Of a stretch of DNA of 60,898 nucleotides, positions 29,109-60,898 are shown in pieces. Both the position numbers and the translations under genes were made by a program. Source of the DNA: a virus; the IMG/VR virus record IMGVR_UViG_3300047469_000079, positions 1-60,898 of that record. The stretch is one strand, 5' to 3'. Below the pieces are notes generated by a model that saw only the letters and a list, made by a program, of their open reading frames with translations, did no database searches and was not told where the DNA came from. Positions within the stretch are counted from its first letter, which is position 1. Each line of letters starts with the position of its first letter.

Positions 29109-29139
29109 ATAGGGTCGTCACCCTGTGCTGAGTTACTCG
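29109..29139 (-). promoter_or_regulatory. Phage RNA polymerase promoter upstream of its own gene
   Basis: The minus strand reads GAGTAACTCAGCACAGGGT then GACGACCCT. It is the closest promoter of this family to the polymerase N-fragment, so the enzyme may amplify its own synthesis. The start of the transcript would form a GGGT/ACCC hairpin. Confidence 0.65.
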
Positions 29140-29604: not shown

Positions 29605-29634
29605 TAGGGTCGTCACCCTGTGCGGAGTTACTCG
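29605..29634 (-). promoter_or_regulatory. Phage RNA polymerase promoter at the integrase stop codon
   Basis: GAGTAACTCCGCACAGGGT then GACGACCCT on the minus strand. The integrase ends ...MRE-stop and its GAG TAA are the first six bases of the promoter. Aligned on GGG, TAACTCCGCACAGGG matches the T7 core CGACTCACTATAGGG in ten of fifteen positions. Confidence 0.7.
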
Positions 29635-31435: not shown

Positions 31436-31891
31436 TTGATGTTTTCCCTTGAAGTGGTGTTTATGTAAGACGAATTAGGGCCACTCACTTTACTCCACAT
31501 CTATTACAGCGTCTAGCTTCATCACGATCTACATTGCTACTCCAGGGCTCTGCGGCCCTCTCTTAGAGTCTTATAGAGTCTTAAAGATAATCCTTAGCCT
31601 CTACCCTATGCGGAGTTACTCGATCGGTCTGACTCAGGCTGTTCAGGAGTGGCTGCTACCCCTATCCACCCTTACAGACGTCTCGACGGGTGCAAACTTT
31701 ACGCTTACGACGCACTTTCAATCCTGTAAATTCGGCACATCTTTAATTGTTTTTCGGGGCTTCGCGCACGCGCGTAAGGGGAGAGAATAGGCCCAGGACG
31801 CTAGACAGCACGCCTGGGAGCCGCTCGCAACGTCTGACGAATAGCTCAGCGACCCTAGACGGCCTGAGCCGCTCAAATCGCCTGCTTTCCT
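31436..31891 (-). other. Long untranslated leader upstream of the XRE regulator
   Basis: No convincing gene is present on either strand. It holds a phage promoter (31604..31622), repeated AGACTCTA/TAAGA motifs just after it, and a GTAAAGTGAGT relative of the intergenic repeat at 31474..31486. A hammerhead ribozyme lies at its upstream edge. Confidence 0.5.
31604..31622 (-). promoter_or_regulatory. Phage RNA polymerase promoter in the regulator leader
   Basis: The minus strand reads CGAGTAACTCCGCATAGGG, the best match to the family consensus together with 48509. Transcription would proceed to the XRE regulator and integrase. GTAGAGG follows, as at 48503 and 13108. Confidence 0.68.
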
Positions 31892-34321: not shown

Positions 34322-34348
34322 GCAGCACTAGGCCGCCCGTGATCCACG

Positions 34349-34669: not shown

Positions 34670-35543
34670 TTGAATACCCGAGCATAACGTAGGGTCTTTA
34701 GCCGTCTCCAGCTGTCCCAAAACACCCCCTTTTTAGGCCCAAAAATCGCCCGCAAACCCAGGCCCAGCAAGGAAGGCTCAGCTGTGCTCGTGAGCGTCGG
34801 ACAATCGACGGTCTTTAGGGCGTCTCCGTGCCTCCCGTGCGGTCAATATCCCGCTCAGGTGTGCGTGTGTATCGCCCTGGTATCGCTTGGGACATCAGGC
34901 GGCCGTATGGAGTCGCTGAGCCGTGCGGCGACGCTGGGCGATACATGCGCATGCCTGAGCGGAACCAAGGGCGCTTAGAGCGTCTATAGGCGTCTCAGGT
35001 ACACCACCATAGAAGCAACCCAGGAGCAGGTATAAGCGATGGCTTAGAACGGACTGTGTGCATGGTGTATGCCCGTGCTACCCGTGCCTGTCACCATGGG
35101 TACAGTGAGCCCCTCTGTGTGTCCTATAGATCACCCAGCGTCACTCTTACCATGTGCTGAGTTACTCACCCAGCGTCTAGGGAAAGCGTGTGCTCGCGTG
35201 TGCGTCCCGTGTGGTGAGCGGAGGGCGAAGCCCGGAGCGGCCATAAGCCCCAAGAACAAAAAAAAACAGTAGCGTGCAAGTGCATGCGCTCGCTCACAGT
35301 CAGCCGCAATAGCCCAGCGTCCCGTGACCCTCCAGGCGTCCCGTGCTACCCGTGGACAGCCCGCAACCCAGGCCATGGTCTATCTAATCCGATTGCCATA
35401 CCCCGCAACCCCAATAGAATCAGGCACTTAGCCGCTCCCCGTGGTGCGTGGTGTGGGCTTTGGTGTGGCCTGTGCCGCTCCCAGCCAGCAGCAGAATCCC
35501 TCGATCCGCCCAAGGACCCTGGCGGCCCCTATGGGGGAAAATC
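34670..35543. other. Gene-poor region with short repeats, candidate genome-end (terminal repeat) region
   Basis: No convincing gene is seen in about 870 bases on either strand. The sequence has many short repeats (GCGTCTC, CCCGTG, GCTGAG) and a run of nine A residues at 35260..35268, and holds one phage promoter. It lies between the terminase end and the first early promoter, where T7-like genomes have their direct terminal repeats flanked by short-repeat arrays. The exact ends cannot be read from sequence alone. Confidence 0.45.
35146..35167 (-). promoter_or_regulatory. Isolated phage promoter in the terminal region
   Basis: GAGTAACTCAGCACATGGTA on the minus strand, with no gene for more than 600 bases downstream. 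T7 has promoters (phiOL, phiOR) near its ends that act as secondary origins; this may be equivalent. Confidence 0.5.
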
Positions 35544-35600
35544 GGCTCGCGCGGCGGCGAACACCTTGTCACGCATTTTCGGGATAAAAATGAGTCCGAG
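35544..35600 (+). repeat. Element shared with unit B, phage copy
   Basis: GGCTCGCGCGGCGGCGA, then TTGTCACGCATTTTCGGGAT and AAAAATGAGTCCGA. It matches 50492..50547 in most positions. Both copies lie upstream of a small plus-strand membrane-protein gene, so it may be a shared promoter region. It also lies near the presumed packaging ends. Confidence 0.65.
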
Positions 35601-35737
35601 GTATCCCAGGGACTCCCAGGTAACCCCAAGCCCTCCCCCGCTGCCCAGGACGTCCCAGGACGGGCTCCCAGGGTTCCAGGAAGGCTACCGTACCAGTTGA
35701 GGTAACATGCCCGCCTAGACCGTTTTGGAGCCCCACC

Positions 35738-41836: not shown

Positions 41837-43911
41837 CAGAAGATACCCATACGCACGCGGAGCACGTTGTTGCTGTCATAGACCCGAAGCTGGTTCGATT
41901 CGATCTCCAGCCGCGCACCCGTTGTGGCAGTACGCAGCAGACCGATGTTCGCGGACAGCGCGGACAGGGACGGCGTCGAGATGCCCGAGGGTGTAATGAG
42001 TGTCCCGAGACCCGCTGGGTTGTACGGACGTAGACGTGTAGCCGACGCAGTTGTCTCAGCCACCATGGGGTGCGTGAGGAACATGTAGGAGCTGACGTCG
42101 GTGTTGTTCATCCCCTTGCGGACGATGAGACGCGCACCTGCCGCATTAACCGGGGCCTGTGCAATCGCACCGAGGCGCAGGTAACCCGAGAGCGCTTGGC
42201 CGCCTGCCATCTGACCCACGGTCGAGCGAGTAGCGCTGGGCGTTCCGAAACCGCTATTGGAGATGACGGCACCTGCGGAGTCTAGCCACTGAATACCCAC
42301 GTCACCGATGCAGCGGTGAATTCCGACATAGGCGGAGTATTCGTAGTAGCTGGAGGCCACGACGGCGCATGTGTCCGAGTAGAACTCCGCGACGTACACG
42401 TCGGGGGACGTCGAGGACCACGTACCGTTCGAGAGGATGTACGCAGCGTGTGCGCCCACAGGGAACCACCCCGGCAGGTCTAAGGCATATGACTGCCCCG
42501 AGCCGCCCACGTTGTCCGCGTAAAACCATCCGTCGAGGTTGACGAACTCCGAGTTCTTCAGGAGGTTCACTCCGAGGCCCACCGAGAGCAAGTCGGTCGT
42601 GATGGTCCCCGCGACCAGCTTGTCGCCGGTGATCGTGTTCGCTTTGATCGACCGTGCCTCAACCGACCCGTCCACCAGCAGCCGACCTGGGTACTTCCGG
42701 TCGCCCATCATGTTCGATGGGATGACCACGGTCGGTGAGCCATCCACCAGACCCGCCTCCAGGATTCCCTTCGGGGTATCGTTGGTGGAGCCCGGTGCGA
42801 CGAACAGCAGCTTGTCAGCCTGCATGATGATCTCGGACCCGACATAGTCATCGTTAGCCGTCGCCGCGAGTCCGATGCCTGCCATGACTGGCTTGCCGTC
42901 TGCACGTTGCACCACTGCCTTCAGGGAATACTGCGCCGAGAGTCCGGTCACCTTCCCGTTCGTGGTGTCGATCTTGGTCTGCATGTCTTGAACGACTTGC
43001 GCCAAGTTGTCATCGATCTGGGTCTGGAGCGTAGTGATCTGTTCGGCCAGTGCCCCGTCCGCAGCCGCGCGTACGGTCTGCTCCGTCTGGATCAGCGCCT
43101 TGACGTTGTTGTTGACGTCGGCTTCGAGCGTCGTGATCTGCTGTGCGAGCGCCGAGTCCTTCTTCACCGAGGCGATGGCCGCCTGGATGATCGACGCGGA
43201 CAGGTCTTCCTCGTCGCTGTTGCCCAGGTCGAGGTTGTCGATCTTGGCTTCGAGCGAGTCGGTCTTGCTTGCGAGAACTGCCTGACCCGACTGGAGCAGG
43301 TTGATGTCCGAGTGAAACGATGCGGACATGTTGTCTTGCTCGACCGTCAGCGCATCGAGTCGCTGGGTAAGCTGGGAGTTCGCAGCGTCGCGGTCTGTGA
43401 TCTCCTGGTTGATCTGGTCTTGCAGGGCCTTCGCCCCGTTCTCCACGGCGGTCACTTTTGCAGAGAGGCCATCGAGAGTCTGGAGGCCAGCTTGCAGGAT
43501 GCCTTGGGTTTCGGCCAGGGAGTCGAGCGCACCCGAGATGGTCTCGATCTCGTTGGACAGCAGTTGGATCACTGTGCCCACTGAGCCCGCGATGCCGCCC
43601 GAGCGCTCTTGAATCAGGAACAACACCTGGAGCCGCGCACGGTTCAGGTCGTCTGCCGTCAGGTTGGCCGCGTCCTTGAACGCGGCGAACTCAACGATGT
43701 CGGGCGTGGCCCGTTGAATCTTGAGAGGCAGACCTTCTGCGAGAGGGTTCCCGAAGAGGTCTACGATCTTGAGTGTATGGTCGTCAACGAAAGTGAACGC
43801 GCGTGCAGCCTCGTTCACCGTGACGAAAATGTGCGACCTATCCAGGTAAGGAAAGTCGAACGACCAGACGGTCTGAACTCCGTCCGTCTGGTAGGTCTGC
43901 GGAAACGGCAT
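41836..43911 (-). CDS. Tail fibre protein with T7 gp17-like N-terminus
   Basis: A 691-aa protein. The first 150 residues match the T7 fibre virion-anchoring domain (YQTDGVQTVWSFDFPYLDRS, HIFVTVNEAARAF, NLTADDLNRARLQVLFLIQE). Then comes a long coiled coil (about residues 150-320) and a C-terminal half with DGKPVMAGIGLAA and GDKLVAGTITTDLLSVGLGV, recalling siphophage tip/fibre proteins. A chimaera of podoviral anchor and other fibre parts. Start overlaps the gp16-like stop. Confidence 0.85.
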   Translation of the reverse strand: MPFPQTYQTDGVQTVWSFDFPYLDRSHIFVTVNEAARAFTFVDDHTLKIVDLFGNPLAEGLPLKIQRATPDIVEFAAFKDAANLTADDLNRARLQVLFLIQERSGGIAGSVGTVIQLLSNEIETISGALDSLAETQGILQAGLQTLDGLSAKVTAVENGAKALQDQINQEITDRDAANSQLTQRLDALTVEQDNMSASFHSDINLLQSGQAVLASKTDSLEAKIDNLDLGNSDEEDLSASIIQAAIASVKKDSALAQQITTLEADVNNNVKALIQTEQTVRAAADGALAEQITTLQTQIDDNLAQVVQDMQTKIDTTNGKVTGLSAQYSLKAVVQRADGKPVMAGIGLAATANDDYVGSEIIMQADKLLFVAPGSTNDTPKGILEAGLVDGSPTVVIPSNMMGDRKYPGRLLVDGSVEARSIKANTITGDKLVAGTITTDLLSVGLGVNLLKNSEFVNLDGWFYADNVGGSGQSYALDLPGWFPVGAHAAYILSNGTWSSTSPDVYVAEFYSDTCAVVASSYYEYSAYVGIHRCIGDVGIQWLDSAGAVISNSGFGTPSATRSTVGQMAGGQALSGYLRLGAIAQAPVNAAGARLIVRKGMNNTDVSSYMFLTHPMVAETTASATRLRPYNPAGLGTLITPSGISTPSLSALSANIGLLRTATTGARLEIESNQLRVYDSNNVLRVRMGIF

Positions 43912-46900
43912 TACTCAGGGAATAGCAATCGTGAGAGTCCGAAGTATTGGTTGAGGGGGATGAGTTGCTTGGCCTTCGACGCGACCTTATCGGTATCGCC
44001 TTGAACCGCCGAGGACACCAGAGAACCACCCGTGTTCAGGGTGCCGCTCCATGCTCCCAGCAAGTTCTCGTACCACGCATTCGCTGCGAACTTCGAGCCC
44101 TGACCACCAAGCGTGAAGCCGAACTGCTGCTTCAGTTGAGGGTCGAGAAGTTTCACGCCAGAGTCCATGTACGCACCGTAGGCTCCTTGGAGTCCCGAGC
44201 GTTGCAGGATGTTGTACGCGAACTCGGTGGGACGATTCTCGAACTGGTCGATAGGGTCCTCACCCTTGAGGTACGACTTCAGGGCGTTGATTGCTACGCC
44301 CGTAGCGAGCGCCCAGCCCACAGCCATAGCGAACCGTGTGTGGTCCCCAGTTACTGCGCCGTACTGAACACCCGCGCGAACGAAGTGATTTGAGAAGGCG
44401 AACGCCATCGTCTGGAACTGGAGGAACAGCTTACCCACCGCGCCGTCCATCATGAGCGGAGTGTGAGCGTAGCCGCCAGTCAGGGAGGCGCGACGCTGCG
44501 TCTTGATGAGCGCAGTTTCCAGCGTGGTGCGCAGATTCAGCGCGTCCCTGCCGGTGCCCCACTTACCCATGTTCGGGTAGAACAAGCCGTTGCCTGCCGT
44601 CTCGCCGTGCTCAGCGAACAGCTTGGCGAGCCCGTTGGCCTCAGTGCGTCCGATGCCCAGCGCGGTGAGTTGCGCCTGCTGGCCCTTCGAGAGCGCATCG
44701 AAACCCTGGCCCACCCACTGCCGAATCTTCGCCATCTGGAAGACGCCCGCCGTGCGCCGGATATTGTCCGACCACGAAGAGAGTCCCGTGAGCTTGGAGA
44801 CCGCAGTGATGCCTTGCTGCATGCCGACTTCGAGCGCGGTCGTTGCCTTCCGCGTGAATCCAGTACCGAACCCGACGTACTCTCGACCAGCACCGCGACC
44901 TAGATGACGCTCGGACATGTTGCCCACCAGCCCATGCTCGAAGGAGCCCATGAGCATAGCGAGTTCCTTTGCGCCCTCTGAGCCCTTGGCGACGTCCTTG
45001 AGGATCGCAGCGAACTGACGGGTGCCAGTGCCGGTCAATGCCTTCAGGGCCGAGCCAGGAGCCGCGAACGCAGCGGTTGCCAAGTCGTTGATAGCCGACA
45101 TCACGAACCCACCGACGAAGCGGAGAGTCGAGGCGTCGCGCACGCGGTCGAGGAAGTAGGTCACAGGATCGTCCCCGCGAGGCTCGTATACACCGAGGAC
45201 TCGGTTCTTCAAACCTTCCAGGTCCTTCTGCACCATCGCCTTCTCTTGCTGCGCTGCCACCTTGGCCTTGCCGTCGAGCCCGCCGATCTTCCGGTCGTAC
45301 GAGTCGAGCACTGTTTCCATACGCTTGTTGAACGGCCCACCCAGGGCTTCGTGGAGCGCGATGCGCCCGCCGAGGTCCTTGTGATACGCCTCCATCAAGT
45401 CAGCCACGTTGGACTTCAGGAAGCCCTTGTCCACCATCCGTTGATACTGCTCATCGGAGTAGGTGATCTTGCGCTCCTTCACGCGTCCCGAGTCGGGCAG
45501 TTCGTCCAGCAGGAGACCGCTTGGTGCCTTGTCGATCCCGGCGAAGTGATTCGCCATCTCATCGACGGCCTTCTGGACCGGGTGCGTCTCGTGCGCCAGG
45601 CGTCGCTGGTCGCGAAGGGACTTCTTCAGAGCATGAGCGGACTTGTTGGACTCAGCCTCGGCTTCAGTCGCGGCCATCCCCAGTTGCTTGCGCAACTCGA
45701 ATGCGTCCCGACGTGCAGCCGTTGCTTCCTCCAGCTTCTCCTTCAGATGGCTAGCGGCATCAATGTGCCCGTCCATCTCGTGCTCCAGCCCAGGCTTCAG
45801 CAGGGCTTCCTTCTCGTCGTCCATGATCTTCTTCACTTCAGCCGCCGCTGCGTCGTGCCATCGCTGGCTGTTCGCGTAGTCCTTGGCGACTGAGTCGAAG
45901 TCGGCGTTCGCGCGTCGCAGGGACTCTTGCGCCTCCCGGCGTTCTTCCATGGCCTCGCGGATAGTGGCCTTCGCCTCGTTGATCTCAGCCTGCGTCGCCT
46001 TGCGCTGCGTGTTGAGCGCATTGCGTTGCTGACGGAGCGGAGTCTGAGCACGGGCACGCTCGGTGCCACCCAGGTTCTCGGAGACGTCCTTCAGTTCTCC
46101 GAGGACATCAGCCTTCTCCGCACGGGTAGCCGCCTGCTGGCCCTTCAGGTCCTCCACCTTGCCCTTGAGGGACTCGGTGAGGCTCTGAGCTTCAGACGTT
46201 GCAGCGAGACGCTCACGCGCCTTCTGGACGGCTGCACCAGCCTCATCGACACGCATGCCCTGTTCTTGCAGGGTGTTCACGATGTCGGTGTATGCCGACT
46301 CGTCGCCGCCCAGCTTGTCCAGTGCAATGCTTACCTTGGCGTCTGCCTTCTGCGCCGCGTAGGTAGCCGAGGCCACCTTGCGCAGCACGGCGTTCCGTTC
46401 GAGGCTCCGACCGCGCGTCTGCATCTCATCGAGCTTCGCACGCTTCCACTCGCGCTCTGCACCAGCGTGAAGTTGCAGGATGTCCGCAGCGTCGTGCTGT
46501 GCGCCCGCTTGCCGACGCGTGGCCTCATCGACCCGCGCCTGGAGCATCGAGTTGGTCCAGTCGTTCTCTTCGCCGCGCCATGCCCGCAGGACGTCGTTCA
46601 GTTCCGTGGGCGTGGCCTTCTCCTTCATCTCGTCCCAGGACGCGTACTGCGGCCCTTCGACGCCTTCAGGTAGCGGGGCTGCGTTGGGGTCCTTGATGTG
46701 ACCTTCCTCGCGTAGCCACCACTCGGTCGGGTTCGAGCCGAACACTTCGTGCAGGTCGTTCTTGAACTCCTGCATGTTCCGCGCGATCTGGGCACGGTCA
46801 TAGACTTGGGGAGCGCCGTAGCGCCCTTCGCCCTTCGCGTCGGGTTCGATTGCACCCACCTTGACGCCCCGGTCCCACAGAGCCTCCATGGAGTCGTGGG

Positions 46901-48347
46901 CCGTCTTCTCTGCCTTGTAGACCAGCGGGTGAACCACCTTGGCCTGAGCCTCGGTGAGTCCCGAGTCCCGCAGGGCCTTCATGACGTTCTCGGAGATTTG
47001 AGCGCTGGGCGTGGCCGTGTTCGAGCCGCGCATGATCGTGAAGACTGCCTGGTTGAACGCATCACGCGGCAGCGTGTTTCTATCGACCGCGCCTTGGGAC
47101 GCAGAGGTCAGCTTGTCCTTCACGTTCGTCTCGAACGCGGACTGACCGAGCGCTTGGTTCGCTTCGTTCCAGACGTTATCGATCTGGCCCATGTCGAACT
47201 TGAACTTCTGTCCGTTCAGCAGCGCGAGGTCTTCCGCCGAGGGGCCGTGAGACACACCCTCCAGGTTGGCCTTGGTCAGCATGCCGCCCGTATCAGCCAG
47301 GCCCAGGAACAATTCGCGGGCCTCGGGGATCGAGTAGTTGCTGAAGCGCTGCATAGGCGTCGCACCCATGAACGTCGTTGTCTTGTCGAGTGCCCGTGCG
47401 AGCCGGCCGCCTTGGGCCAGTTCAGTACCAGCCTCGAAGTCGGACGCTGCATTCGCATCAGCGCGAGCCGCACCGACAGAGTCAGCCGTGCCGAACGTGG
47501 GCTCCTTGCGACCGTAGGGGTCGAGCGTGAAGCCTTCCTCGGGCGTCTGACCCAGTTGCATCTCGACCACCGGCTGCGGCTTGTCCACGTTATCGGGATG
47601 CAGCGGGTTGTCGGGGTGCGTTGGGTTGAGAACACTGTCAGGCTTCGCGTGCTTGAAGATGCCGCCCACGACACCGCCGAGCGAAGCAGCGATGCCGATG
47701 TTCATGAAGAGGTCTTTGGGGTCTGCGTCTCGCGTGGAGTCCGTGAGTTGCAGTGCGCCTTCCTGTGCCGCCGCGTCGAGCGCGAAGACACCAGCGCTCT
47801 TGAGGACGCTACCGACAGTCGAGGCCGCCTTGATACCACCGAGCGCTACGCCACCAAAGGAGGCAGCAGACGTCAGGTCGAACATCGAGGCACCCATGCC
47901 GAGCAAATGGCCCCAGATGTCTCCCCGCGCGGCCATTTGGTGGTCGGCCAGGTTTAGTCGCTGACCGTCAAGGTACTTGCGAAGTCCACCCTCGGATTGA
48001 ATCGTATTTATTCTGGACTCCGACAGTACATAGGGGAGAATGTCCTGGTACTGCGATTCGTTTTTCTTGAGATAGGTCCAAGGGTTGAAGGAAGGGTCCC
48101 TCGGCTCGGAAATGTCGGTGTGTGTGAGTTCCCGATAGCCCTGCCCGATACGGGTATTCACGCGCCATTCAGCGGCGGCCACTTCGATAGCATTGGGCCT
48201 GCCGAGGTCAGCGACTTCGGTGTCCTGCTTGACGTGGATGCCGACGTCGTTCGGCTGGGCGTCCATGCCGACACCAGGGACGGCGTCGATGACGGGTGCT
48301 GGGGTCGTATTGTCTGAAACGGACGGGGAGAGTGGATTGGTAGTCAT
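43911..48347 (-). CDS. Gp16-like internal virion (DNA ejection) protein, complete copy
   Basis: A 1478-aa protein with no recognisable transglycosylase domain at its N-terminus. The middle (about residues 600-920) is a long charged coiled coil; several hydrophobic helices occur in the N-terminal (ASFGGVALGGIKAA) and C-terminal thirds. Size and place (before the fibre gene) match T7 gp16. As drawn, its 5' part joins unit B (promoter at 48509) while its 3' part joins the fibre gene of unit A. A second copy of both ends is at the window edges. Confidence 0.7.
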   Translation of the reverse strand: MTTNPLSPSVSDNTTPAPVIDAVPGVGMDAQPNDVGIHVKQDTEVADLGRPNAIEVAAAEWRVNTRIGQGYRELTHTDISEPRDPSFNPWTYLKKNESQYQDILPYVLSESRINTIQSEGGLRKYLDGQRLNLADHQMAARGDIWGHLLGMGASMFDLTSAASFGGVALGGIKAASTVGSVLKSAGVFALDAAAQEGALQLTDSTRDADPKDLFMNIGIAASLGGVVGGIFKHAKPDSVLNPTHPDNPLHPDNVDKPQPVVEMQLGQTPEEGFTLDPYGRKEPTFGTADSVGAARADANAASDFEAGTELAQGGRLARALDKTTTFMGATPMQRFSNYSIPEARELFLGLADTGGMLTKANLEGVSHGPSAEDLALLNGQKFKFDMGQIDNVWNEANQALGQSAFETNVKDKLTSASQGAVDRNTLPRDAFNQAVFTIMRGSNTATPSAQISENVMKALRDSGLTEAQAKVVHPLVYKAEKTAHDSMEALWDRGVKVGAIEPDAKGEGRYGAPQVYDRAQIARNMQEFKNDLHEVFGSNPTEWWLREEGHIKDPNAAPLPEGVEGPQYASWDEMKEKATPTELNDVLRAWRGEENDWTNSMLQARVDEATRRQAGAQHDAADILQLHAGAEREWKRAKLDEMQTRGRSLERNAVLRKVASATYAAQKADAKVSIALDKLGGDESAYTDIVNTLQEQGMRVDEAGAAVQKARERLAATSEAQSLTESLKGKVEDLKGQQAATRAEKADVLGELKDVSENLGGTERARAQTPLRQQRNALNTQRKATQAEINEAKATIREAMEERREAQESLRRANADFDSVAKDYANSQRWHDAAAAEVKKIMDDEKEALLKPGLEHEMDGHIDAASHLKEKLEEATAARRDAFELRKQLGMAATEAEAESNKSAHALKKSLRDQRRLAHETHPVQKAVDEMANHFAGIDKAPSGLLLDELPDSGRVKERKITYSDEQYQRMVDKGFLKSNVADLMEAYHKDLGGRIALHEALGGPFNKRMETVLDSYDRKIGGLDGKAKVAAQQEKAMVQKDLEGLKNRVLGVYEPRGDDPVTYFLDRVRDASTLRFVGGFVMSAINDLATAAFAAPGSALKALTGTGTRQFAAILKDVAKGSEGAKELAMLMGSFEHGLVGNMSERHLGRGAGREYVGFGTGFTRKATTALEVGMQQGITAVSKLTGLSSWSDNIRRTAGVFQMAKIRQWVGQGFDALSKGQQAQLTALGIGRTEANGLAKLFAEHGETAGNGLFYPNMGKWGTGRDALNLRTTLETALIKTQRRASLTGGYAHTPLMMDGAVGKLFLQFQTMAFAFSNHFVRAGVQYGAVTGDHTRFAMAVGWALATGVAINALKSYLKGEDPIDQFENRPTEFAYNILQRSGLQGAYGAYMDSGVKLLDPQLKQQFGFTLGGQGSKFAANAWYENLLGAWSGTLNTGGSLVSSAVQGDTDKVASKAKQLIPLNQYFGLSRLLFPE

Positions 48348-48502: not shown

Positions 48503-48528
48503 TCCTCTACCCTATGCGGAGTTACTCG
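48503..48528 (-). promoter_or_regulatory. Phage RNA polymerase promoter upstream of the unit B gp16-like gene
   Basis: The minus strand reads GAGTAACTCCGCATAGGGTA then GAGGACCCTATA. Aligned on GGG, TAACTCCGCATAGGG matches T7 CGACTCACTATAGGG in 11 of 15 positions including ACTC and ATAGGG. The GAG TAA is the end of the upstream gene. The transcript starts with a GGGT/ACCC hairpin. This is the best-formed member of the family. Confidence 0.72.
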
Positions 48529-49118
48529 TCCCCCCGTCGCTTATTGAATTCGCGGAGCTTCTCCAAACGCTCCCAGGGACTCAGGGACTCATCTCGCAGC
48601 AAGGCGGCCTGACTATCACCGCTCGGCGGTGCATCTTCGACACCTCGCTCGCCATCGCGTCGAGCGACGCTTCGCGCCAGCTTCTGGCGGTACCAATCCT
48701 GAATTTTTCGTTGCACCCAAGTTGGTCCTTCGCGTCGCGGGGCGCTCGCGCGGAATGCACGGATGTTCAGGTTGCGCTCGCGGGCTTCCTTGGCGCGGGT
48801 CTTCTGAGCGTGGCGATGCTTGACGGCGTCCGCTGCGGTCATCTGGAAGTGCTGGAGACAGTAGGCGTCGCTCGCGAGGTCGCTTCGCTTCACATAGCCG
48901 CGTCGATTGGCGTCCCGTGACTTCCTTGGATTCCGTGCGCGGGCTTCGCGGGCCTTCCGCTGGAAACAGTCCCTGCAATCGAGCGAATAGGCGGATTGCG
49001 TCCACAGTGGGTATTTCACATTGCGGTAGAAGGCGGACACGGGTCTCTCCGCGCGGCATGTGCGACATACGAGTGTCGCCGGGGGCTTCCAGCCCTTCGG
49101 AATTCTGGTCAACATTTC
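48522..49118 (-). CDS. Zinc-binding basic protein of unit B
   Basis: A 198-aa protein from ATG 49118 (MLTRIPKGWKPPATLVCRTC). Cys pairs VCRTC and CRDC, then a strongly basic chain (KAREARARNPRKSRDANRRG). A likely nucleic-acid binder. The 103-aa product of 59260..59571 has a similar Cys motif. Its stop codon is part of the promoter at 48503..48528. Confidence 0.6.
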   Translation of the reverse strand, partial: EMLTRIPKGWKPPATLVCRTCRAERPVSAFYRNVKYPLWTQSAYSLDCRDCFQRKAREARARNPRKSRDANRRGYVKRSDLASDAYCLQHFQMTAADAVKHRHAQKTRAKEARERNLNIRAFRASAPRREGPTWVQRKIQDWYRQKLARSVARRDGERGVEDAPPSGDSQAALLRDESLSPWERLEKLREFNKRRGDE

Positions 49119-49351
49119 ACGATATGGAATAAAGGATTGACGGGGAAGGCGTGCGAATGCGTAGTGATGTGCTCGGCAGGAACCCGAGGGCCGATCCGCG
49201 CTTGCTGGCCGTTGAACGCGCTGCATTCCTCCTGCGGGCCTGCTGAGGCCATGTCTCGCCACGAGCAACCTGCGCCCCAAGCGCACACGCGTTCCGCTGA
49301 GGTATACCTGTGCGAAACGCCCCTGACGCCGAAGATAACGTTCCGTTAGGG

Positions 49352-49379
49352 TTGACAGTGTTTTCGGAACATCTATAAT
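49352..49379 (+). promoter_or_regulatory. Consensus sigma-70 promoter with CGGAAC repeats for the serine recombinase
   Basis: TTGACA and TATAAT with a 16-base spacer, both perfect. Three CGGAAC repeats occur at 49365, 49381 and 49396, within and after the promoter, a likely operator for self-regulation by the recombinase or another protein. Confidence 0.85.
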
Positions 49380-49417
49380 TCGGAACACCAACTCAACGGA
49401 ACGGGGTGAAACGAAGC

Positions 49418-50014
49418 ATGAGACGCATCTACTACGGGCGTGTATCGACGCTCGACGGGCAGACCGCCGCGAGCCAATACGCCGACGCCGCAGAACGCGG
49501 CATAGAGAAAGACGATGTTTTCATTGACGAAGGGGTGAGCGGGTATCACATACCGCCGCTTGATCGGAAACAGTGGCAGCACGTAGAGCGTGATTTGCGC
49601 AAGGGAGGCGTGCTGGTTGTACGGTGGCTCGACCGAATCTCGCGCCGCTACGACGAACTGCACGACACGATGCAGCGCCTCATGAAGAAGGGAGTCCGCG
49701 TCGAATGCACCCTCAACGGAATGGTGTTCGATGGGCAGGAGACGGACCCACTACGAAAGGCGGTGCGCGAGGCTCTATTGGCCTTCATGGCAGCGCAGGG
49801 CGAAGCGGATTATCGGAACCGGCGCGATATGCAGGCCCGTGGCATAGCGATAGCGAAGGATGAGGGGAAGTACAAGGGCCGCAAGCCCGCCGTGGATTAC
49901 GCAGAAGTCAGGGCGTACCACGCGGAACACGGAGGCTCTGTGCGCTCCCTTGCCGAACATTTTGGCGTAGGCGTGGCGACGATCTTCCGTGCCCTGAATG
50001 CAGCGAACGACTAA
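49418..50014 (+). CDS. Serine recombinase (resolvase/invertase family)
   Basis: A 198-aa protein starting at ATG 49418 (GTG 49406 is possible). RRIYYGRVSTLDGQTAASQY holds the catalytic Ser; FIDEGVSGYHIPPLDRKQW, GVLVVRWLDRISRRYDELHD and a C-terminal helix-turn-helix (GSVRSLAEHFGVGVATIFRA) complete the small resolvase plan. It may resolve multimers or invert DNA; a target site cannot be named. Confidence 0.9.
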   Translation: MRRIYYGRVSTLDGQTAASQYADAAERGIEKDDVFIDEGVSGYHIPPLDRKQWQHVERDLRKGGVLVVRWLDRISRRYDELHDTMQRLMKKGVRVECTLNGMVFDGQETDPLRKAVREALLAFMAAQGEADYRNRRDMQARGIAIAKDEGKYKGRKPAVDYAEVRAYHAEHGGSVRSLAEHFGVGVATIFRALNAAND

Positions 50015-50422: not shown

Positions 50423-50491
50423 CGCCTGACTACAGGTGAGAGATTCCCTTGACCGTCCCTAAACCGCTTGGGGAGGGCACGGGGGGAACCT

Positions 50492-50547
50492 GGCTCGCGC
50501 GGCGGCGACACCCTGTCACGAATTTTCGTGAGTAAAATGAGTCCGAC
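50492..50547 (+). repeat. Element shared with unit A, unit B copy
   Basis: GGCTCGCGCGGCGGCGA, then CTGTCACGAATTTTCGTGAG and TAAAATGAGTCCGA, matching 35544..35600. It lies 25 bases upstream of a small membrane-protein gene, as does the unit A copy some 140 bases before its gene. Confidence 0.65.
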
Positions 50548-50571
50548 TATCCAGCGACTCAGGAGTGGCCC

Positions 50572-50826: not shown

Positions 50827-51525
50827 TTAATGGTCCCTTTGCTCGGTTTGAGACTCAAGTTGCGAGTCTATTTTGGTTATTACCTCGCCCGCCGAATTGT
50901 AGTATTCCGTGAAGATGTCTAGGCAACCCATCAACGGCGCGAGTCCAATCACCAGATGTGGCGGGTTCAACGTTTTGCCCAAGTGCAGCGTCCAGCTTCG
51001 TTTGTCAACTGTGGCGTAGGACCCCAATACGCCAGCAAAATTAGGATGCGTGTACTCACATAACCTCGCGTACATTGCTTCGATGCCGCTGAACTTTTTC
51101 TCGCAGTGTCTAATGATCGTCAGAATATTCTGTGACTCTTCTTCGGTGGAGCCGTCGCGGCTGCCTAGCAATCCCTTTTTTATGAACGCCTCATAGGCGT
51201 CTACGTCGCCGCTGTTCAAAAATGCCTCTGACTTTTGACGGAACTGGAACATTACCGCAGTGGTTTCCAGTACTGCACGAACGACTACAAACGCGGGAAC
51301 CATCGTTCGCGATGCAAGGAGTTGCAGAGCTACGTCCGCGAGGTCACTAAACCTGTGGATCAATACCTCCCGATAGCATCCTGCTCGAAACAACATTTCT
51401 GCGTTTGATCTGTAATCGCTGCGGCGAAGTGCGACCGTAAGTGCATTACGGACATTGTCTGCATATTTACCTGCAAGTTCGAATCGCTGTTCATCTGACA
51501 TTTTCTCAACATCAATCTCTTCCAT
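50827..51525 (-). CDS. 232-aa DUF5677/HEPN-like cargo protein
   Basis: ATG 51525. HRFSDLADVALQLLASRTMV, PAFVVVRAVLETTAVMFQFR and LCEYTHPNFAGVLGSYATVD resemble DUF5677-like helical proteins. Codons are visibly more A/T-rich than in the phage genes, a sign of recent transfer. Such cargo can act in defence or stress response; no catalytic motif proves it. Confidence 0.5.
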   Translation of the reverse strand: MEEIDVEKMSDEQRFELAGKYADNVRNALTVALRRSDYRSNAEMLFRAGCYREVLIHRFSDLADVALQLLASRTMVPAFVVVRAVLETTAVMFQFRQKSEAFLNSGDVDAYEAFIKKGLLGSRDGSTEEESQNILTIIRHCEKKFSGIEAMYARLCEYTHPNFAGVLGSYATVDKRSWTLHLGKTLNPPHLVIGLAPLMGCLDIFTEYYNSAGEVITKIDSQLESQTEQRDH

Positions 51526-51804: not shown

Positions 51805-52422
51805 CTATATGGATGCCTGTGAGCCAAGCCGCATCGCTGCGAAGCGTAGAGATGCCAGAGCTGCTTCCTGAGCGTGTACGGCAGACGTGTCGTTGATCTG
51901 CCAAAGCTTTCCCACTAATGAATCGCTTTCGAGAATCCTTGCGTCCTGTAGTCGTCGGATGTAGCGACGGACGTTATCAGGGCGCTTGTTCGCGTATTGG
52001 GCGTACCACTTAACCAGCGCTTGGATTCCCGGCGTGACCCCTCGCCGTCTATTGCGAAACTGCAACACGAATAGGGCGAAAGCGCGCACTTCGGGTCGCA
52101 AATTGGACAGAACATACTCTCGTTGACGACACCGCTCCGAAACTCGCAACAGGTGTTGATATCTAGAATCTCTACGGGCGTTAGCGTCGCTAAGAATTTC
52201 ACCGGTACCCCGGTCGAGCCATTCTACGACAATAGGCGCGAGATACTTTTCAACCGGCTTGCCCGATTGGATCATCGGTAACTTCAAGCGCCGCCAATGC
52301 TGCTCGACCACATATGGCACAAGAGGTGCGGTATTCACGCCATCATGTTCATATTCTACGAGTGGCTCCCGTTCACGGTCAGGAGCGTTGGAGTCTTCAG
52401 TCATGTTTAAATCGTTGTTCAT
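51805..52422 (-). CDS. 205-aa putative winged-helix protein of unit B
   Basis: ATG 52422 (MNNDLNMTEDSNAPDRERE). Acidic start, basic middle (LLRVSERCRQREYVLSNLRP), then KWYAQYANKRPDNVRRYIRR and LQDARILESDSLVGKLWQIN, which read like a winged-helix DNA-binding unit. It might be the replication or regulatory protein of unit B. The 279 bases downstream (51526..51804) hold nothing I recognise. Confidence 0.5.
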   Translation of the reverse strand: MNNDLNMTEDSNAPDREREPLVEYEHDGVNTAPLVPYVVEQHWRRLKLPMIQSGKPVEKYLAPIVVEWLDRGTGEILSDANARRDSRYQHLLRVSERCRQREYVLSNLRPEVRAFALFVLQFRNRRRGVTPGIQALVKWYAQYANKRPDNVRRYIRRLQDARILESDSLVGKLWQINDTSAVHAQEAALASLRFAAMRLGSQASI

Positions 52423-52757: not shown

Positions 52758-52775
52758 GTTGTTGTGTAGGGTTCT

Positions 52776-52795
52776 ACCCTGTGCGGAGTTAGTTG
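52776..52795 (-). promoter_or_regulatory. Phage RNA polymerase promoter in unit B
   Basis: The minus strand reads CAACTAACTCCGCACAGGGT then AGAACCCT. The TAA is the stop of the 326-aa gene, as in other members. It should place the 39-aa and 205-aa genes of unit B under helper-phage polymerase. Confidence 0.65.
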
Positions 52796-53769
52796 CGAGG
52801 TTCGCTTTCGGTCTTTCTTTTCGCGCTAGAGCGGAGGCGCAATGCGTCCTGTAGCTCCTGCTGCGCACGCTCTAGGGCTCGTGTAGCGGAACGCAGCGCC
52901 TGCAAGCACTGTGTCATTCCACGAGAAGCCTGTGTAATCGCATCCGCCGCGTGCTGTAGGCTGATGTCCTCTGCCGTTGGCGCGGGGGCATGTTTGGCGG
53001 CCTCCCGCTGACTCGCCCAGTTGCGAATAGACGCAGGACTGGTCATGTCGCCTGGAGTTTCCCCGAGGGCGTCGAAATTCTCAGCTAACCATATGGTTGA
53101 GGGCCGGTCAGGCACGTCGTGAAATCCTTTCGCCTTTACCCATGCGCCGTAAGCGCCGCATCGGCCATCAGCGTTCAATCTTTTGCCGACCGCTAGGGCC
53201 TGCCCGACATCGCGCCACCATTTGAGATGTTCGCTGTTTGATTTTTTACGCCGCTCTTGCGCCTTGTCTCCCTGCCTACGTGACAAGGCCCGTCGTGCTG
53301 GCATCGCCTCTTTTATGGAGGCCCATGCAGCTTGACCACGCGCAACGACCGCCACTAGGTCCCGCGTATCTGCGGACGTTTTCTGCGGACTTTTGAGTTG
53401 TTGTGCTGTGGCCTCGTCGGCGTAGCGTGCGGGTCGCGGACCCTTCCCTGATTCCAGTTCGCGGTTCCGATACCACTCTAGAATTTGAAGCGGCAGCGTG
53501 CCGTGGGGGGCATCAGCTTTTGCGTATTCTTCCACGCCGATCTGGGCAAATCCGGAGATGCCCCCGAGGTCGTTGTACGCACACCATTGTCTGAAGACGG
53601 TCCCGTTCGGCGTCACCTTGCGGCCTACCGCAAGCGCTTTACCTAATGCGTACCATTCCCCATGCATCATGGCTCTGGATGCTTTGATGGTTTTCCACGC
53701 TTCGCGTCCGCGTTGAAGCAACAACGCGTCGGAAGCGCTTACTCCAGCGTTCATTGGAGACTCGCTCAC
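52789..53769 (-). CDS. 326-aa protein with two copies of a WxxxGxALAVG domain
   Basis: GTG start at 53769. Repeat 1: REAWKTIKASRAMMHGEWYA then LGKALAVGRKV; repeat 2: AAWASIKEAMPARRAL, then KWWRDVGQALAVGKRL and YGAWVKAKGFHDVPDRPSTI. The C-terminal 80 residues are helical and basic. A third copy of the domain is in the next upstream ORF. A DNA-binding regulator is plausible from charge; the family is not recognised. Confidence 0.6.
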   Translation of the reverse strand: MSESPMNAGVSASDALLLQRGREAWKTIKASRAMMHGEWYALGKALAVGRKVTPNGTVFRQWCAYNDLGGISGFAQIGVEEYAKADAPHGTLPLQILEWYRNRELESGKGPRPARYADEATAQQLKSPQKTSADTRDLVAVVARGQAAWASIKEAMPARRALSRRQGDKAQERRKKSNSEHLKWWRDVGQALAVGKRLNADGRCGAYGAWVKAKGFHDVPDRPSTIWLAENFDALGETPGDMTSPASIRNWASQREAAKHAPAPTAEDISLQHAADAITQASRGMTQCLQALRSATRALERAQQELQDALRLRSSAKRKTESEPRN

Positions 53770-54335: not shown

Positions 54336-56030
54336 TCATTTGATATCGGGCCATTTCACCTTATCCAATGCCGCCTTCATGGTAGGTAGCGACGCAGCAG
54401 CAGTGTAGACCTTGCGCCCGCTCGAACCGGTCGCAGAGTGCCCTGTGATTGCATCCATAGTGGCCTCGCCTATGTGCTGCTCAGCGAGCGCCGTGCGAAT
54501 CCAATGCCGGAACCTGTGTGCCCCTTTCAGGTCTCCGGGCGGCAACCCGGTAGCTGCGCGAAATTGGCGAAACCACTGCCCCGCCGTATCTCCTGGGCCT
54601 TTCGCGCGGCCAGCCATTGACGGCATGGCGGGGCCGGTGCCACACATGACGCCCGAGAGCCAATTAGCGAACCAAGGATCGACAAGCAGGTGCGCTGCGA
54701 GCGGCACGACACGTTCCGATTCCTGCGTCTTCACTTTCCCCGCCTCGGCGGTAATGCGAATAGCCGTGACCCCATTGCGACTCAAAAAATCTTCACGGCG
54801 CAGTTGCGCAATTTCACCAATGCGTGCCCCTGTGTGCAGCATTAGCAGGATCATCGCCCTACCGTCGGAGGGCTCGACACCTTCCCAGCGTGGCGTGTCG
54901 TTCATGCTGGCAGAGAATAACGAACTCGCGAACATCAAATCTAGTTCGCCATCAGTCCACGGCTCGCGCTTTTGTGCCCCGATGGTTTTATCAAACGACA
55001 GGTCGAACGGATTACGCTCTATCAAATCCACCTTTTCCGCGACATTCATCAGCGCGTTGATGGCTGCGGCATGATTGCCCGCTGTCTTGTTTGCGAACTT
55101 GCGGGCCTCTGCGTCAAGGAGGAACTGCACAAAGGCGACTCCATGAGCTTTCTTCAAGTCTTTCAGCGCAACAACGCCCACTGCCAGTTCGAACAATGTC
55201 AGCGCTTTCTCCGTGCGCCCTACAGCGTTATCCTTCGGTGCATTGAGTCTGCGCCAAAACGGCACAACATCGCGAAGAGTAAGGCAAGACTCGGCAGGTT
55301 CCTCGGGCTTCCCGATTACTGGCGGAGTCGGGTCTGTTGGTGTCTCCACAGGTTCACCAGAGTCTCGCTTGGACGCGTTCTCCCAGGCACGGACCATAGC
55401 TCCGAGTATCTTCTGAAGCGCTGCCCGAGCTTCAGGCTGCGTCCAATCCACACGGATTGCCAACGCCGCACACGTGGTCCCTGCGATGGCTCGTGCCGCT
55501 TCGAGTCTCCCCACCATGTAGTCCGTGCGCAGCAACCGTGCGATTGCCGTGCGTATCTCGCTGGCGCTTTCGTATTGCTCAGGGTCCAAATAGTCGCCCA
55601 CGGCGTCCCATGCCTCTTCTACTACAGGATCACCAACGAGTCGGCCTCGCGGCGCGGTCGAGCGTATGACGTCGCGGAGATAGCGCGGATTACTGCGAAG
55701 GAGATCGTCCAACGCCAAGACATCACGCTCGATTTTTTGGACGATATAGGCAACTAGTTCGTTCGTTACCGGGGTGGGTGCCGTGGGCCTAGAGCCTGCA
55801 CGCAAAGTCTCGAATCTGCGCTGCTGCTCCGCAATGATCGCGTGCGCTCTGGATGCCGCTTCGTTGCGATCAGATGTCTTGAGACTAGCGCGGTAGGCAT
55901 CAGTGGCGAGCTTGTCGTTCGCCTGACGCTCCCAAAGATGCTGGATGTCTTTGGGTACTCCAACGCGCAAGTGATACACGGAGCCGCGAAGGCTGACTCC
56001 AGCAGGAAGGGTAACGGGCATGTCTGTCAT
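54336..56030 (-). CDS. int: Tyrosine integrase of unit B
   Basis: A 564-aa protein from ATG 56030 (MTDMPVTLPAGVSLRGSVYH). The N-terminus resembles DUF6538-type integrases. Catalytic residues: LLMLHTGARIGEIAQLRRED (Arg), HRFRHWIRTAL (HxxR), ITGHSATGSSGRKVYTAAAS (His, Tyr). It reads away from a tRNA-Pro 3'-end sequence about 120 bases upstream of its start, the expected attachment site. A longer ORF passes through that sequence but its added part is not protein-like. Confidence 0.92.
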   Translation of the reverse strand: MTDMPVTLPAGVSLRGSVYHLRVGVPKDIQHLWERQANDKLATDAYRASLKTSDRNEAASRAHAIIAEQQRRFETLRAGSRPTAPTPVTNELVAYIVQKIERDVLALDDLLRSNPRYLRDVIRSTAPRGRLVGDPVVEEAWDAVGDYLDPEQYESASEIRTAIARLLRTDYMVGRLEAARAIAGTTCAALAIRVDWTQPEARAALQKILGAMVRAWENASKRDSGEPVETPTDPTPPVIGKPEEPAESCLTLRDVVPFWRRLNAPKDNAVGRTEKALTLFELAVGVVALKDLKKAHGVAFVQFLLDAEARKFANKTAGNHAAAINALMNVAEKVDLIERNPFDLSFDKTIGAQKREPWTDGELDLMFASSLFSASMNDTPRWEGVEPSDGRAMILLMLHTGARIGEIAQLRREDFLSRNGVTAIRITAEAGKVKTQESERVVPLAAHLLVDPWFANWLSGVMCGTGPAMPSMAGRAKGPGDTAGQWFRQFRAATGLPPGDLKGAHRFRHWIRTALAEQHIGEATMDAITGHSATGSSGRKVYTAAASLPTMKAALDKVKWPDIK

Positions 56031-56152
56031 TTCCGTAGTTTCGCACAGCGGATTGACACACTCCAGAGACACAGCCGTAAACGAGAAAGCCCGGTGAGCC
56101 TTGTCAGCATTGGCTTTCCCAATACTGGCTTGACTTACCGGGCTATGTCTCT

Positions 56153-56180
56153 TGGTCGGGGCGAGAGGATTTGAACCTCT
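56153..56180 (-). other. Attachment-site core: 3' end of a tRNA-Pro gene
   Basis: The minus strand reads AGAGGTTCAAATCCTCT then CGCCCCGACCA: full T-arm, 3' acceptor strand, discriminator and CCA. It matches bacterial tRNA-Pro closely. The matching 5' half (CGGGGCG and the anticodon arm) is absent upstream, so this is a partial tRNA, as found at att sites of integrative elements. On the plus strand the inverted repeat AGCCCGGT/ACCGGGCT (56090..56142) adjoins it. Confidence 0.8.
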
Positions 56181-56262
56181 GTGAACCCACGGTGGAATAA
56201 GGCTTTCCCGGAAGTGTGTCGTGTCAATTCGCTGGCTTAATTGACACAGCACAACAAGTTTA

Positions 56263-57570
56263 TCATGTGCCGGTTTCAGAGACCGATTTAGACGGAATGT
56301 CTGACACGCTTGCAACGCTTTTTGGCTTTCCAAGCTTACCCAATGCCTCATTAGCCAACTCGACTACTCTTCCCGCAAATCCTGGAATAGTTTTAGCAGC
56401 ATCCTTGACGACATCCGACGAAAGGAGTTCGTGCCACGGGCTGCCATGGGTCGTTGTTTCTACCAATCGCAAAGGGAGTTCGTCCAAACGGGCTAGCGCA
56501 GACTCAAGGAGGCTGGCTTCCATGTCAGAGTCGATGCGGGCAGCTTCGCGCCGATACCCTTCGTAAGCTCTTGAAATCGACGCTTTGAATGCGTAATCTT
56601 CTGATAGTCGAAACCGTTGACCGACCTGCTTTGTCGCTAGCCAAGCGAACCAGACGGGCGCTCCAACCGAGAAGAGGGACAAGACAAGATCAAGCGATAG
56701 CATGCTTCCAGTAGTCGCCGGGTTTTTGATGAGGTCCGAAAGTTGATGAAGTTGCCTAGACCCAAGCAACCCAGCCAGCACCAAGGCAAGCACCAACCCG
56801 GCCACCCATGCCCACATGGACTTGTCAAGCGCCCGCGAACGCTCAGCAAATGCCGCCGCCAGACCTTGGCTTGTCGCTGCCGAATAGGCAGACTCGCACC
56901 TAGCCAAGACGGCGCTTGCCTCGTCGGCGTTCGCATTAAGTTTACTACTGAGCTTGTCCGCTTCTTCGCGGGCCGACAAGAGATGGGCGCGATCCCTTTC
57001 AGCCTCCTTGAGTAGCTCCTGCACCTTCTGGCGGGCCTCTGCTAAAGTCTCCAAATCCGTCGGTAATTGATCGGCTGTGTTGTACGCGCCTTCTATTCGC
57101 TCAACCATATCGGTCAAGGCCGCCGATCTGGGTTCAAGTCCTTTGACACGAGCCTCCATCGCCCGAATCTGAGATGCTACACGTCTGATGGCAGCAGCAT
57201 TCTCTAAATTCGGGTCGATGGTAAGTACATTTGACAGTGCCTGTCGCAGTCCGTCGAGTGTGAGCAGATAAGCAGAAACACCGGCGGCGGCATTCCCCCA
57301 AATGTTCGGCACAGTACTCGACCTGAGGTACTGAAGTCGGCGCAAGTAGTCATTTAGCCGTGGTTCGCTCTCAGCAATCGAATCACCACCCCGCTCACGA
57401 ATCAATGTGGCGAGGGACGTCGCGGCCTCAGCAAGCTCCACGCGAGTCAGTCCTGGGAAGGTCCAATTTCCGTGCGCATTGGAAAACGGCTCATCGTTCG
57501 GAATCGAACTTTTGACTTGCGCTGCCAACTGATCTAATTCCGTGCAGATTGCCTCTAAGATCGCGTGCAT
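56263..57570 (-). CDS. 435-aa coiled-coil membrane protein next to the attachment site
   Basis: ATG 57570. Helical soluble N-terminal part, coiled coil (about residues 150-235), two membrane segments (MWAWVAGLVLALVLAGLLGS, then LSLFSVGAPVWFAWLAT) and a soluble C-terminal helical part. More A/T-rich than the phage genes. Place beside att is typical for cargo, and this topology occurs in membrane-anchored defence proteins, but there is no diagnostic domain. Confidence 0.55.
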   Translation of the reverse strand: MHAILEAICTELDQLAAQVKSSIPNDEPFSNAHGNWTFPGLTRVELAEAATSLATLIRERGGDSIAESEPRLNDYLRRLQYLRSSTVPNIWGNAAAGVSAYLLTLDGLRQALSNVLTIDPNLENAAAIRRVASQIRAMEARVKGLEPRSAALTDMVERIEGAYNTADQLPTDLETLAEARQKVQELLKEAERDRAHLLSAREEADKLSSKLNANADEASAVLARCESAYSAATSQGLAAAFAERSRALDKSMWAWVAGLVLALVLAGLLGSRQLHQLSDLIKNPATTGSMLSLDLVLSLFSVGAPVWFAWLATKQVGQRFRLSEDYAFKASISRAYEGYRREAARIDSDMEASLLESALARLDELPLRLVETTTHGSPWHELLSSDVVKDAAKTIPGFAGRVVELANEALGKLGKPKSVASVSDIPSKSVSETGT

Positions 57571-59259: not shown

Positions 59260-59571
59260 TTACTTGGTGGATTGGTGAATTGCGAGGGCGCGGGCTTTCT
59301 CGCGGGCGCGTTTGGCGCGGCTGACGCGACGGGCGACGTCCACTGTCTTGCAGTAGTGATTCAATCCGTCAGATCGGCTACGGTCGCTGTAAAACTCGGT
59401 GACCGGATGCTCGCGGCCACAGGCGCGGCAGAATTTCAGCTTGACGCCATTGGGGACTGGGATGTCAGGCTTATCGTCCGCGTCGGCAATGAGGCGCTGG
59501 ATTTCTGCCTCTTGAAGCGATACGACAACGTGACTGACCCAGAGAAAATCTTCGGGGATGGTGTGTTGCAT
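59260..59571 (-). CDS. 103-aa zinc-motif protein after the gp16-like gene
   Basis: KFCRACGREHPVTEFYSDRS and NHYCKTVDVARRVSRAKRAR: a CxxC plus later Cys, followed by a basic tail, similar to the 198-aa unit B protein and to phage Zn-finger/HNH remnants. It lies where the tail fibre gene lies in unit A. Confidence 0.55.
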   Translation of the reverse strand: MQHTIPEDFLWVSHVVVSLQEAEIQRLIADADDKPDIPVPNGVKLKFCRACGREHPVTEFYSDRSRSDGLNHYCKTVDVARRVSRAKRAREKARALAIHQSTK

Positions 59572-59649: not shown

Positions 59650-60898
59650 TTAGTTAGACTCAGGGAACAGCAATCGTGAGAGTCCGAAGTATTGGTTGAG
59701 GGGGATGAGTTGCCTGGCCTTCGACGCGACCTTGTCTATGTCGCCTTGAACCGCAGAAGATACGAGGGAGCCCGCACTGTTCAGTGTGCCGCTCCACGGT
59801 CCCAGCAAATTTTCATACCAGGCATTTGCCGAGAACTTGGAGCCCTGACCGCCAAGCGTGAAGCCGAACTGCTGCTTCAGCTGAGGGTCGAGAAGTTTCA
59901 CGCCAGCATCCAAGTAGGACCCGTACATGGCGGGTAGTCCCGAGCGTTGCAGGATGTTGTACGCGAACGTCGTAGGATTGCTCAGCATGTCTTCGACAGG
60001 ATCACCGCCTTTCATATAGGTCTTGATGGCGTTGATCGCAACGCCCGTAGCAATAGCCCATCCCACAGCGGTAGCGAACCGAATGTGATCCCCCGTGACT
60101 GCGCCGTACTGGATGCCCGCACGGATGAAGTGATTTTCGAAGGCGAACGCCATCGTCTGGAACTGGAGGAACAGCTTGCCCACGGCACCGTCCATCATGA
60201 GCGGAGTGTGAGCGTAGCCGCCAGTCAGGGAGGCGCGACGCTGCGTCTTGATGAGCGCAGTTTCCAGCGTGGTGCGTAGATTCAGTGCGTCCCTGCCGGT
60301 GCCCCACTTACCCATGTTCGGGTAGAACAATCCGTTGGCTGCCGTCTCGCCGTGCTCAGCGAACAGCTTGGCGAGCCCGGTGGCCTCAGTGCGTCCGATG
60401 CCCAGCGCGGTGAGTTGCGCCTGCTGGCCCTTCGAGAGCGCATCGAAACCCTGGCCCACCCACTGCCGAATCTTCGCCATCTGGAAGACGCCCGCCGTGC
60501 GCCGGATATTGTCCGACCACGAAGAGAGTCCCGTGAGCTTGGAGACCGCAGTGATGCCCTGCTGCATGCCGACTTCGAGCGCGGTCGTTGCCTTGCGCGT
60601 GAAGCCAGTACCGAACCCGACGTACTCTCGGCCAGCACCACGGCCCAGATGACGCTCGGACATGTTACCCACCAGCCCGTGCTCGAAGGAGCCCATGAGC
60701 ATAGCGAGTTCCTTTGCGCCCTCTGAGCCCTTGGCGACGTCCTTGAGGATCGCAGCGAACTGACGGGTGCCAGTGCCGGTCAATGCCTTCAGGGCCGAGC
60801 CAGGCGCAGCGAACGCAGCGGTCGCCAAGTCGTTGATAGCCGACATCACGAACCCACCGACGAAGCGGAGAGTCGAGGCGTCGCGCACGCGGTCGAGG
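59650..60898 (-). CDS. Gp16-like internal virion protein, C-terminal part, cut by window edge
   Basis: The frame enters from the right edge and ends at 59650 (LLFPESN then stop). It is highly similar to residues of the complete copy encoded by 43911..45156; the last 75 bases of the window equal 45082..45156. The C-terminus is two residues longer. It is followed by small genes instead of the tail fibre. With the left-edge fragment this accounts for all of a second gp16-like gene except 2252 bp. Confidence 0.72.
   Translation of the reverse strand, partial: LDRVRDASTLRFVGGFVMSAINDLATAAFAAPGSALKALTGTGTRQFAAILKDVAKGSEGAKELAMLMGSFEHGLVGNMSERHLGRGAGREYVGFGTGFTRKATTALEVGMQQGITAVSKLTGLSSWSDNIRRTAGVFQMAKIRQWVGQGFDALSKGQQAQLTALGIGRTEATGLAKLFAEHGETAANGLFYPNMGKWGTGRDALNLRTTLETALIKTQRRASLTGGYAHTPLMMDGAVGKLFLQFQTMAFAFENHFIRAGIQYGAVTGDHIRFATAVGWAIATGVAINAIKTYMKGGDPVEDMLSNPTTFAYNILQRSGLPAMYGSYLDAGVKLLDPQLKQQFGFTLGGQGSKFSANAWYENLLGPWSGTLNSAGSLVSSAVQGDIDKVASKARQLIPLNQYFGLSRLLFPESN

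Follow-up and report, generated by a model that had tools for sequence, protein, structure and literature searches.

A candidate phage satellite with promoter-like sites of its T7-like helper

The window analysed here, a whole IMG/VR virus record of 60,898 bases with nearly all genes on the minus strand, joins a temperate T7-like phage to foreign DNA. By sequence comparison, the foreign part is the stretch of about 48.3-60.9 kb (48.32-60.9), which we name S. S is, with a probability of roughly 0.6, a satellite of the T7-like phage that makes up the remainder of the contig.

This phage, called the helper below, runs leftward from ~35.2 kb, and its gp16 gene runs off the left end. It has the T7 gene order with an integrase beside the polymerase, as in a temperate T7-like phage, and also carries primase, DNA polymerase, portal, capsid, and tail genes. 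ARAGORN reports a tRNA-Ile at 12257-12340, overlapping the portal gene start, which is possibly a false positive. The genes around the polymerase are as follows.

31067-31435: helper HTH repressor-like gene
29628-30902: helper integrase, 424 aa
27945..28838, minus strand: helper RNA polymerase, N-terminal part (phrog_414 positions 6-245)
25287..26978, minus strand: helper RNA polymerase, C-terminal part (T7 residues ~318-882; phrog_414)

The C-terminal part keeps the T7 residues D537, K631, Y639, and D812, and this retention of the catalytic residues favors the satellite reading. The split, as well as both polymerase parts, is conserved across the relatives. Therefore, the helper polymerase looks like a stable two-subunit enzyme at the sequence level, presumably comparable in plan to N4 RNAPII. 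A polymerase search of the genome collection returned only a distant Gracilibacteria contig. The two genes are separated by ~1 kb of small ORFs (window 25287-28838). A 29-nt repeat family (ATAAAGCAACTCRCTTCACTTCAGG) is found around the polymerase genes and the early region, at 25267-25295, 27935-27963, and 34297-34325, as possible operators, and 58-nt repeats with hairpin-like halves are located between small early genes (31891-31948, 32962-33019, 33538-33595). Two provirus records of relatives (G002, G009) start at the polymerase N gene and end at the integrase gene, which places the helper attachment site between these genes. The same region is uninterrupted in the window, so the helper is read in its unintegrated form.

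From 48.3 to 36.0 kb, the window carries gp16, two fibre genes, and the large terminase. A close relative (IMGVR_UViG_3300046506_000050; L002/L003) matches window positions 2114-1 at 99.3% and then, unbroken, 48316-36056 at 99.0%; its early region and polymerase come next, with the polymerase 100% identical to that of the window. This continuous match across gp16, terminase, and polymerase assigns 36.0-48.3 kb to the helper, the phage that encodes the polymerase. In the close relative G001, gp15, gp16, terminase, and polymerase are all in one piece, and other relatives have a single gp16 gene in the standard T7 order. For unit B of the original prediction, 48.3-60.9 kb stands as foreign, but the fibre-to-terminase genes at 36.0-43.9 kb belong to the helper given the contiguity in G001. 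A unit B consisting of the gp16-to-terminase stretch (36.0-48.3 kb) was ruled out, as G001 has it contiguous with gp15 and the polymerase region. Likewise, the statement that unit B has no single-subunit polymerase is correct for 48.3-60.9 kb but misleading if 36.0-48.3 kb is counted in, because the latter is the late half of the polymerase-encoding phage itself. The S genes besides gp16 have no homologue among the six relatives compared, whereas the phage genes do, which argues for a satellite.

Seven sites of one promoter-like motif are located in the window, two of them in S.

48506..48528, minus strand: S site 1, CGAGTAACTCCGCATAGGGTAGA, upstream of gp16; its TAA is the stop codon of an HNH-like gene; matrix score 28.8
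52773..52795, minus strand: S site 2, CAACTAACTCCGCACAGGGTAGA; its TAA is the stop codon of a 326-aa gene; matrix score 24.3
29117..29139, minus strand: helper site directly upstream of the polymerase N part; score 32.6
29612..29634, minus strand: helper site at the end of the helper integrase gene; score 31.4
31600..31622, minus strand: helper site in the early region; score 28.8
35146..35168, minus strand: helper site at the start of the early region; score 35.0
13107..13129, minus strand: helper site before the late genes, position conserved in relatives; score 33.1

The weight matrix was trained on phage sites only (window phage and relatives G002-G009), leaving the S sites out. Scores are 24-35 for the seven sites and no higher than 11.3 anywhere else in the window. 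In 300 second-order random sequences of S length, the best scores had a mean of 8.7 and a maximum of 19.5; both S sites are thus above the best of all 300. A pattern search gave 6 matches against 0.01 expected in shuffles, and 25 bases at S site 1 (48504-48528) are exactly identical to those at a phage site (31598-31622). All sites are oriented in the same way as the genes, and at both S sites as well as two of the five helper sites, the upstream gene uses the TAA within the motif as its stop codon. Relatives carry ~3-5 motif sites each, all on the coding strand and several at corresponding places. The motif is therefore repeated and strand-specific in a genome with a single-subunit polymerase, as T7-class promoters are, and its core is similar to that of T7/T3 promoters at CTC (-9 to -7) and in the A-GGG region at the start. 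We infer that the S sites are promoters for the helper polymerase, and the satellite reading gains from their above-random scores and from the sequence, strand, and stop-codon layout that they share with the helper sites. The original prediction had placed both sites in the phage promoter family; the scores and the 25-base match bear this out, with coordinates a few bases off and both sites on the minus strand.

A transcript from S site 2 would begin GGGUAGAACCC. If transcription starts at GGG, four sites (two in S and two in the helper) give a 5' GGGU...ACCC hairpin. Folded without a second hairpin, these are no more stable than shuffles (z ~0.4), so they count as a shared feature only. In addition, hairpins that resemble intrinsic terminators are present after site 2 and, as read from the sequence, between site 1 and gp16, so that full-length transcription of the genes downstream of the S sites is not assured. 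Among all viral contigs, the exact promoter 16-mer occurs in 20 stretches, three of them from the helper family (L035, L043, L040); the others, which do not match the window at the nucleotide level, resemble chance occurrences or coding sequence. In the temperate T7-like phage LUZ100, the mapped phage promoters share a 17-bp motif, only partly like that of T7, and the phi1 promoter lies directly upstream of the polymerase gene (PMC10134795), as does the helper site at 29117-29139.

S also carries a copy of a noncoding element of the helper.

35533..35615, minus strand: helper terminase-side noncoding element, directly after the terminase gene, between terminase and early region
50481..50560, minus strand: S copy of the terminase-side element, putatively packaging/terminus-like

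The S copy matches 35533-35615 with 84% identity over 83 bp (E 2.4e-14); of the 75 aligned columns that are conserved among the phages, 62 are the same in S. Six relatives have the helper element, conserved, in the same position. A strict pattern for this element, searched in 2.9 million IMG/VR viral contigs, was found in 6 contigs, all of this helper family. The presence in S of a copy of an element otherwise confined to the helper family supports the satellite reading. In T7-like genomes, packaging and end-processing sites are located between the terminase and the early region. Because the element sits at this very place, it would have a packaging or end-processing role.

Apart from gp16, the following genes and signals were found in S.

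48522..49391, minus strand: HNH/endonuclease VII-like gene, ending in site 1 (phrog_2340, weak, E 9e-5)
49352..49379, plus strand: sigma-70 promoter match TTGACA-16-TATAAT (12/12), preceding the resolvase gene
49406..50014, plus strand: small serine recombinase (resolvase/invertase; PF00239, phrog_125)
50827..51525, minus strand: 232-aa orphan with weak relatives in two Rhizobium replicons
51805..52422, minus strand: 205-aa orphan, first gene downstream of site 2, only weak library matches
52789..53769, minus strand: 326-aa orphan, ending in site 2
54336..56351, minus strand: S tyrosine integrase with DUF6538, 671 aa (PF00589, PF20172, phrog_1); real start probably near 56030
56152..56179, minus strand: tRNA-Pro 3' end beside the S integrase, 28-nt match to tRNA 3' ends, probable attP core
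56263..57570, minus strand: 435-aa coiled-coil accessory gene beside the S integrase (phrog_34659)
59260..59571, minus strand: HNH/endonuclease VII-like gene (phrog_1035, E 5e-8)

As expected of a satellite, S has its own integration module, formed by the tyrosine integrase and the tRNA-Pro 3' end, and this adds to the case for the satellite reading. ARAGORN identified two matching places in other replicons as tRNA-Pro. There is no full tRNA at 56152-56179, and a tRNA 3' end alone suits the attP of an unintegrated element. The S integrase found no relatives in an IMG/VR search, the 326-aa orphan none among phages or IMG/VR, and the 205-aa orphan no match in a plasmid search. The perfect sigma-70 match lies on the strand opposite to the S sites, so that some S genes could be expressed without the helper. 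Relatives of the 435-aa gene occur beside the portal gene of a P2-like prophage, in a Providencia phage, and on plasmids, a setting typical of accessory or defence genes; as a known defence system, the gene was rejected, having weak coiled-coil matches only. Between 48.3 and 59.6 kb, no capsid, portal, tail, terminase, or polymerase gene was recognised, and ~2.3 kb of S (the gp16 middle) is not separately seen. An Rfam scan of S gave a single sub-threshold match.

Contact between S and the helper is recorded in gp16, of which two copies are found.

43911..48347, minus strand: gp16-like internal virion protein (PHROG 16310), S-type in codons 1-~300 and helper-type in the rest
59650..60898, minus strand: second (S) gp16, C-terminal part, running off the right end, 92% aa identity to gp16

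The S and helper types of gp16 differ strongly at both ends, with dS of 0.48-0.54 in codons 1-180 and 0.56-0.79 in the last 150 codons. Between these ends, dS is 0.04-0.21 in the C-terminal copy and ~0 in the helper-type body of the 43911-48347 frame. At the ends, dN/dS is 0.07-0.27; the S gp16 is maintained, functional-looking, and under purifying selection, which is further support for a satellite. The diverged ends and the nearly identical middle suggest recent DNA exchange between S and this helper lineage, in which the gp16 middle of S appears to have recombined. The gp16-like gene assigned earlier to unit B thus keeps an S-type N-terminus, but only its first ~300 codons are S-specific and its body is that of the helper. 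A gp16 profile scan found 15 loci, all on apparent phage contigs, and the inspected ones have the normal T7-like order. HNH/endonuclease VII-like genes lie on both sides of the S gp16, as if gp16 were exchanged via homing-type nucleases.

The contig ends on the left at codon 304 of the helper gp16 and on the right at about codon 1066 of the S gp16. It breaks off on both sides next to one and the same near-identical gp16 segment, as a collapse of this segment during assembly would produce, and the join between S and the phage through this stretch may be an assembly product. Closed through the gp16 segment, the helper would be a circle of 47,407 bp and S one of 15,745 bp, with a ratio of 3.01. 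The contig does run continuously from S into the phage through gp16, and S could thus be an insertion inside this phage, either a 63-kb variant or a gp16-crossover cointegrate, rather than an independent element. We regard this as very improbable, given that S is absent from G001, that ~63 kb exceeds the 44-51 kb of the relatives' records, and that the position of both ends has the look of a collapsed assembly of two molecules.

Alternatively, S may be a fragment of another, related temperate phage, or a prophage of that phage group that has decayed, with the shared features left over from common descent rather than adapted to a helper. The promoters, the terminase-side element, and gp16 are all phage-derived, the dS of 0.5-0.8 at the gp16 ends indicates a different lineage, and satellites plausibly arise from deleted prophages. 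Against this, no further virion, terminase, lysis, or replication gene of the phage group was recognised in the 11.3 kb adjoining gp16, and no relative matches the gene order around gp16. In addition, the two integrases differ in kind (671 aa with DUF6538 in S, 424 aa in the helper), and the selected gp16 has been homogenised with the co-occurring phage. We therefore think this origin unlikely. It is also rather improbable that the sites are another phage element, such as an operator, a processing site, or part of a terminator. Four of the seven coincide with a gene end and some have a hairpin directly after them, but they point with the genes, their core layout and GGG start are T7-class-like, and one stands directly before the polymerase gene. 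As for the operator reading, it was rejected because relatives do not conserve the inner palindrome GAGTNACTC. Several points weigh against the satellite reading itself: the uncertain join and the hairpins described above, the occurrence of S in one contig, the failure of IMG/VR searches with the integrase, the 326-aa gene, gp16, and the terminase-side pattern to find another S-like element, and the lack of any recognised replication, capsid-control, or small-terminase gene in S.

Compared with known systems, S as a satellite would resemble the P4-like satellites and PICIs/SaPIs (P2-P4, SaPI-80alpha), small integrative elements of 11-16 kb that depend on helper signals; without capsid-size control, full-size capsids hold two or three copies of P4 or SaPI (PMC4936722). 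In contrast to these, S has no P4, PICI, or PICMI core genes that we could find: AlpA, primase, Sid/Psu, TerS, and Stl-type repressor were not recognised among the tested S genes in Pfam, PHROGs, NCBIfam, and PADLOC scans. Its helper is T7-like, and the proposed signal is the helper single-subunit RNA polymerase instead of an activator or derepression. PICMI of Vibrio, like S, has no recognised capsid-remodelling gene, and its DNA is packaged as a helper-size concatemer (PMC10803314). However, PICMI is ~1/8 of the helper size, encodes alpA and primase, integrates beside fis, and has no packaging site identified, whereas S has a recognisable helper terminase-side element and gp16 (PMC10803314). 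AH14a/AH14b of Pseudomonas are co-induced prophages in which a 16.8-kb satellite and a 55-kb helper use same-size capsids; AH14b differs from S in its P4-like integrase, AlpA, and primase, and the portion of the source consulted describes no polymerase-promoter link (PMC4936722). Putative E. coli satellites share with S a tRNA-adjacent tyrosine integrase, sometimes a serine recombinase, some virion genes, and nucleases at exchange boundaries, but they carry capsid and tape-measure genes where S has only gp16 between two HNH-like genes (PMC10448857). LUZ100 and its relatives share the helper plan, with an integrase upstream of the polymerase and a phage promoter at the polymerase gene; the helper differs in its polymerase split into two genes, and the available part of the report describes no satellite for LUZ100 (PMC10134795).

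In its quiet state, the satellite would be integrated at a host tRNA-Pro gene by its own tyrosine integrase, with the host RNA polymerase reading mainly the resolvase strand. Once made, the two-piece helper polymerase would initiate transcription at 52773-52795 and 48506-48528 and thereby activate the minus-strand S genes, the 205/232-aa block and then gp16. S would be copied by the helper replication proteins, possibly with the promoters as origins as in T7. The element at 50481-50560 would then give the helper terminase access to S DNA, which may be packaged as trimers that fill a head (3 x 15.7 = 47.2 kb, compared with 47.4 kb for the helper). The strictest form of this scheme, in which the satellite senses its helper only via the orthogonal polymerase, is copied from its promoters, is packaged as exact trimers via the borrowed element, and uses its own gp16 for DNA delivery, is a tentative proposal that we hold to be possible but doubtful.

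Known satellites read helper activators, repressors, or other helper proteins, and among the open-licence papers searched, we found none wired to a T7-type polymerase. If our reading is correct, S would place its switch on a T7-type polymerase, one that the host polymerase cannot trip. With one polymerase, two promoters, and one terminase-side element, it would offer a compact and testable model for the way in which a satellite links up with phages of the T7-like group.
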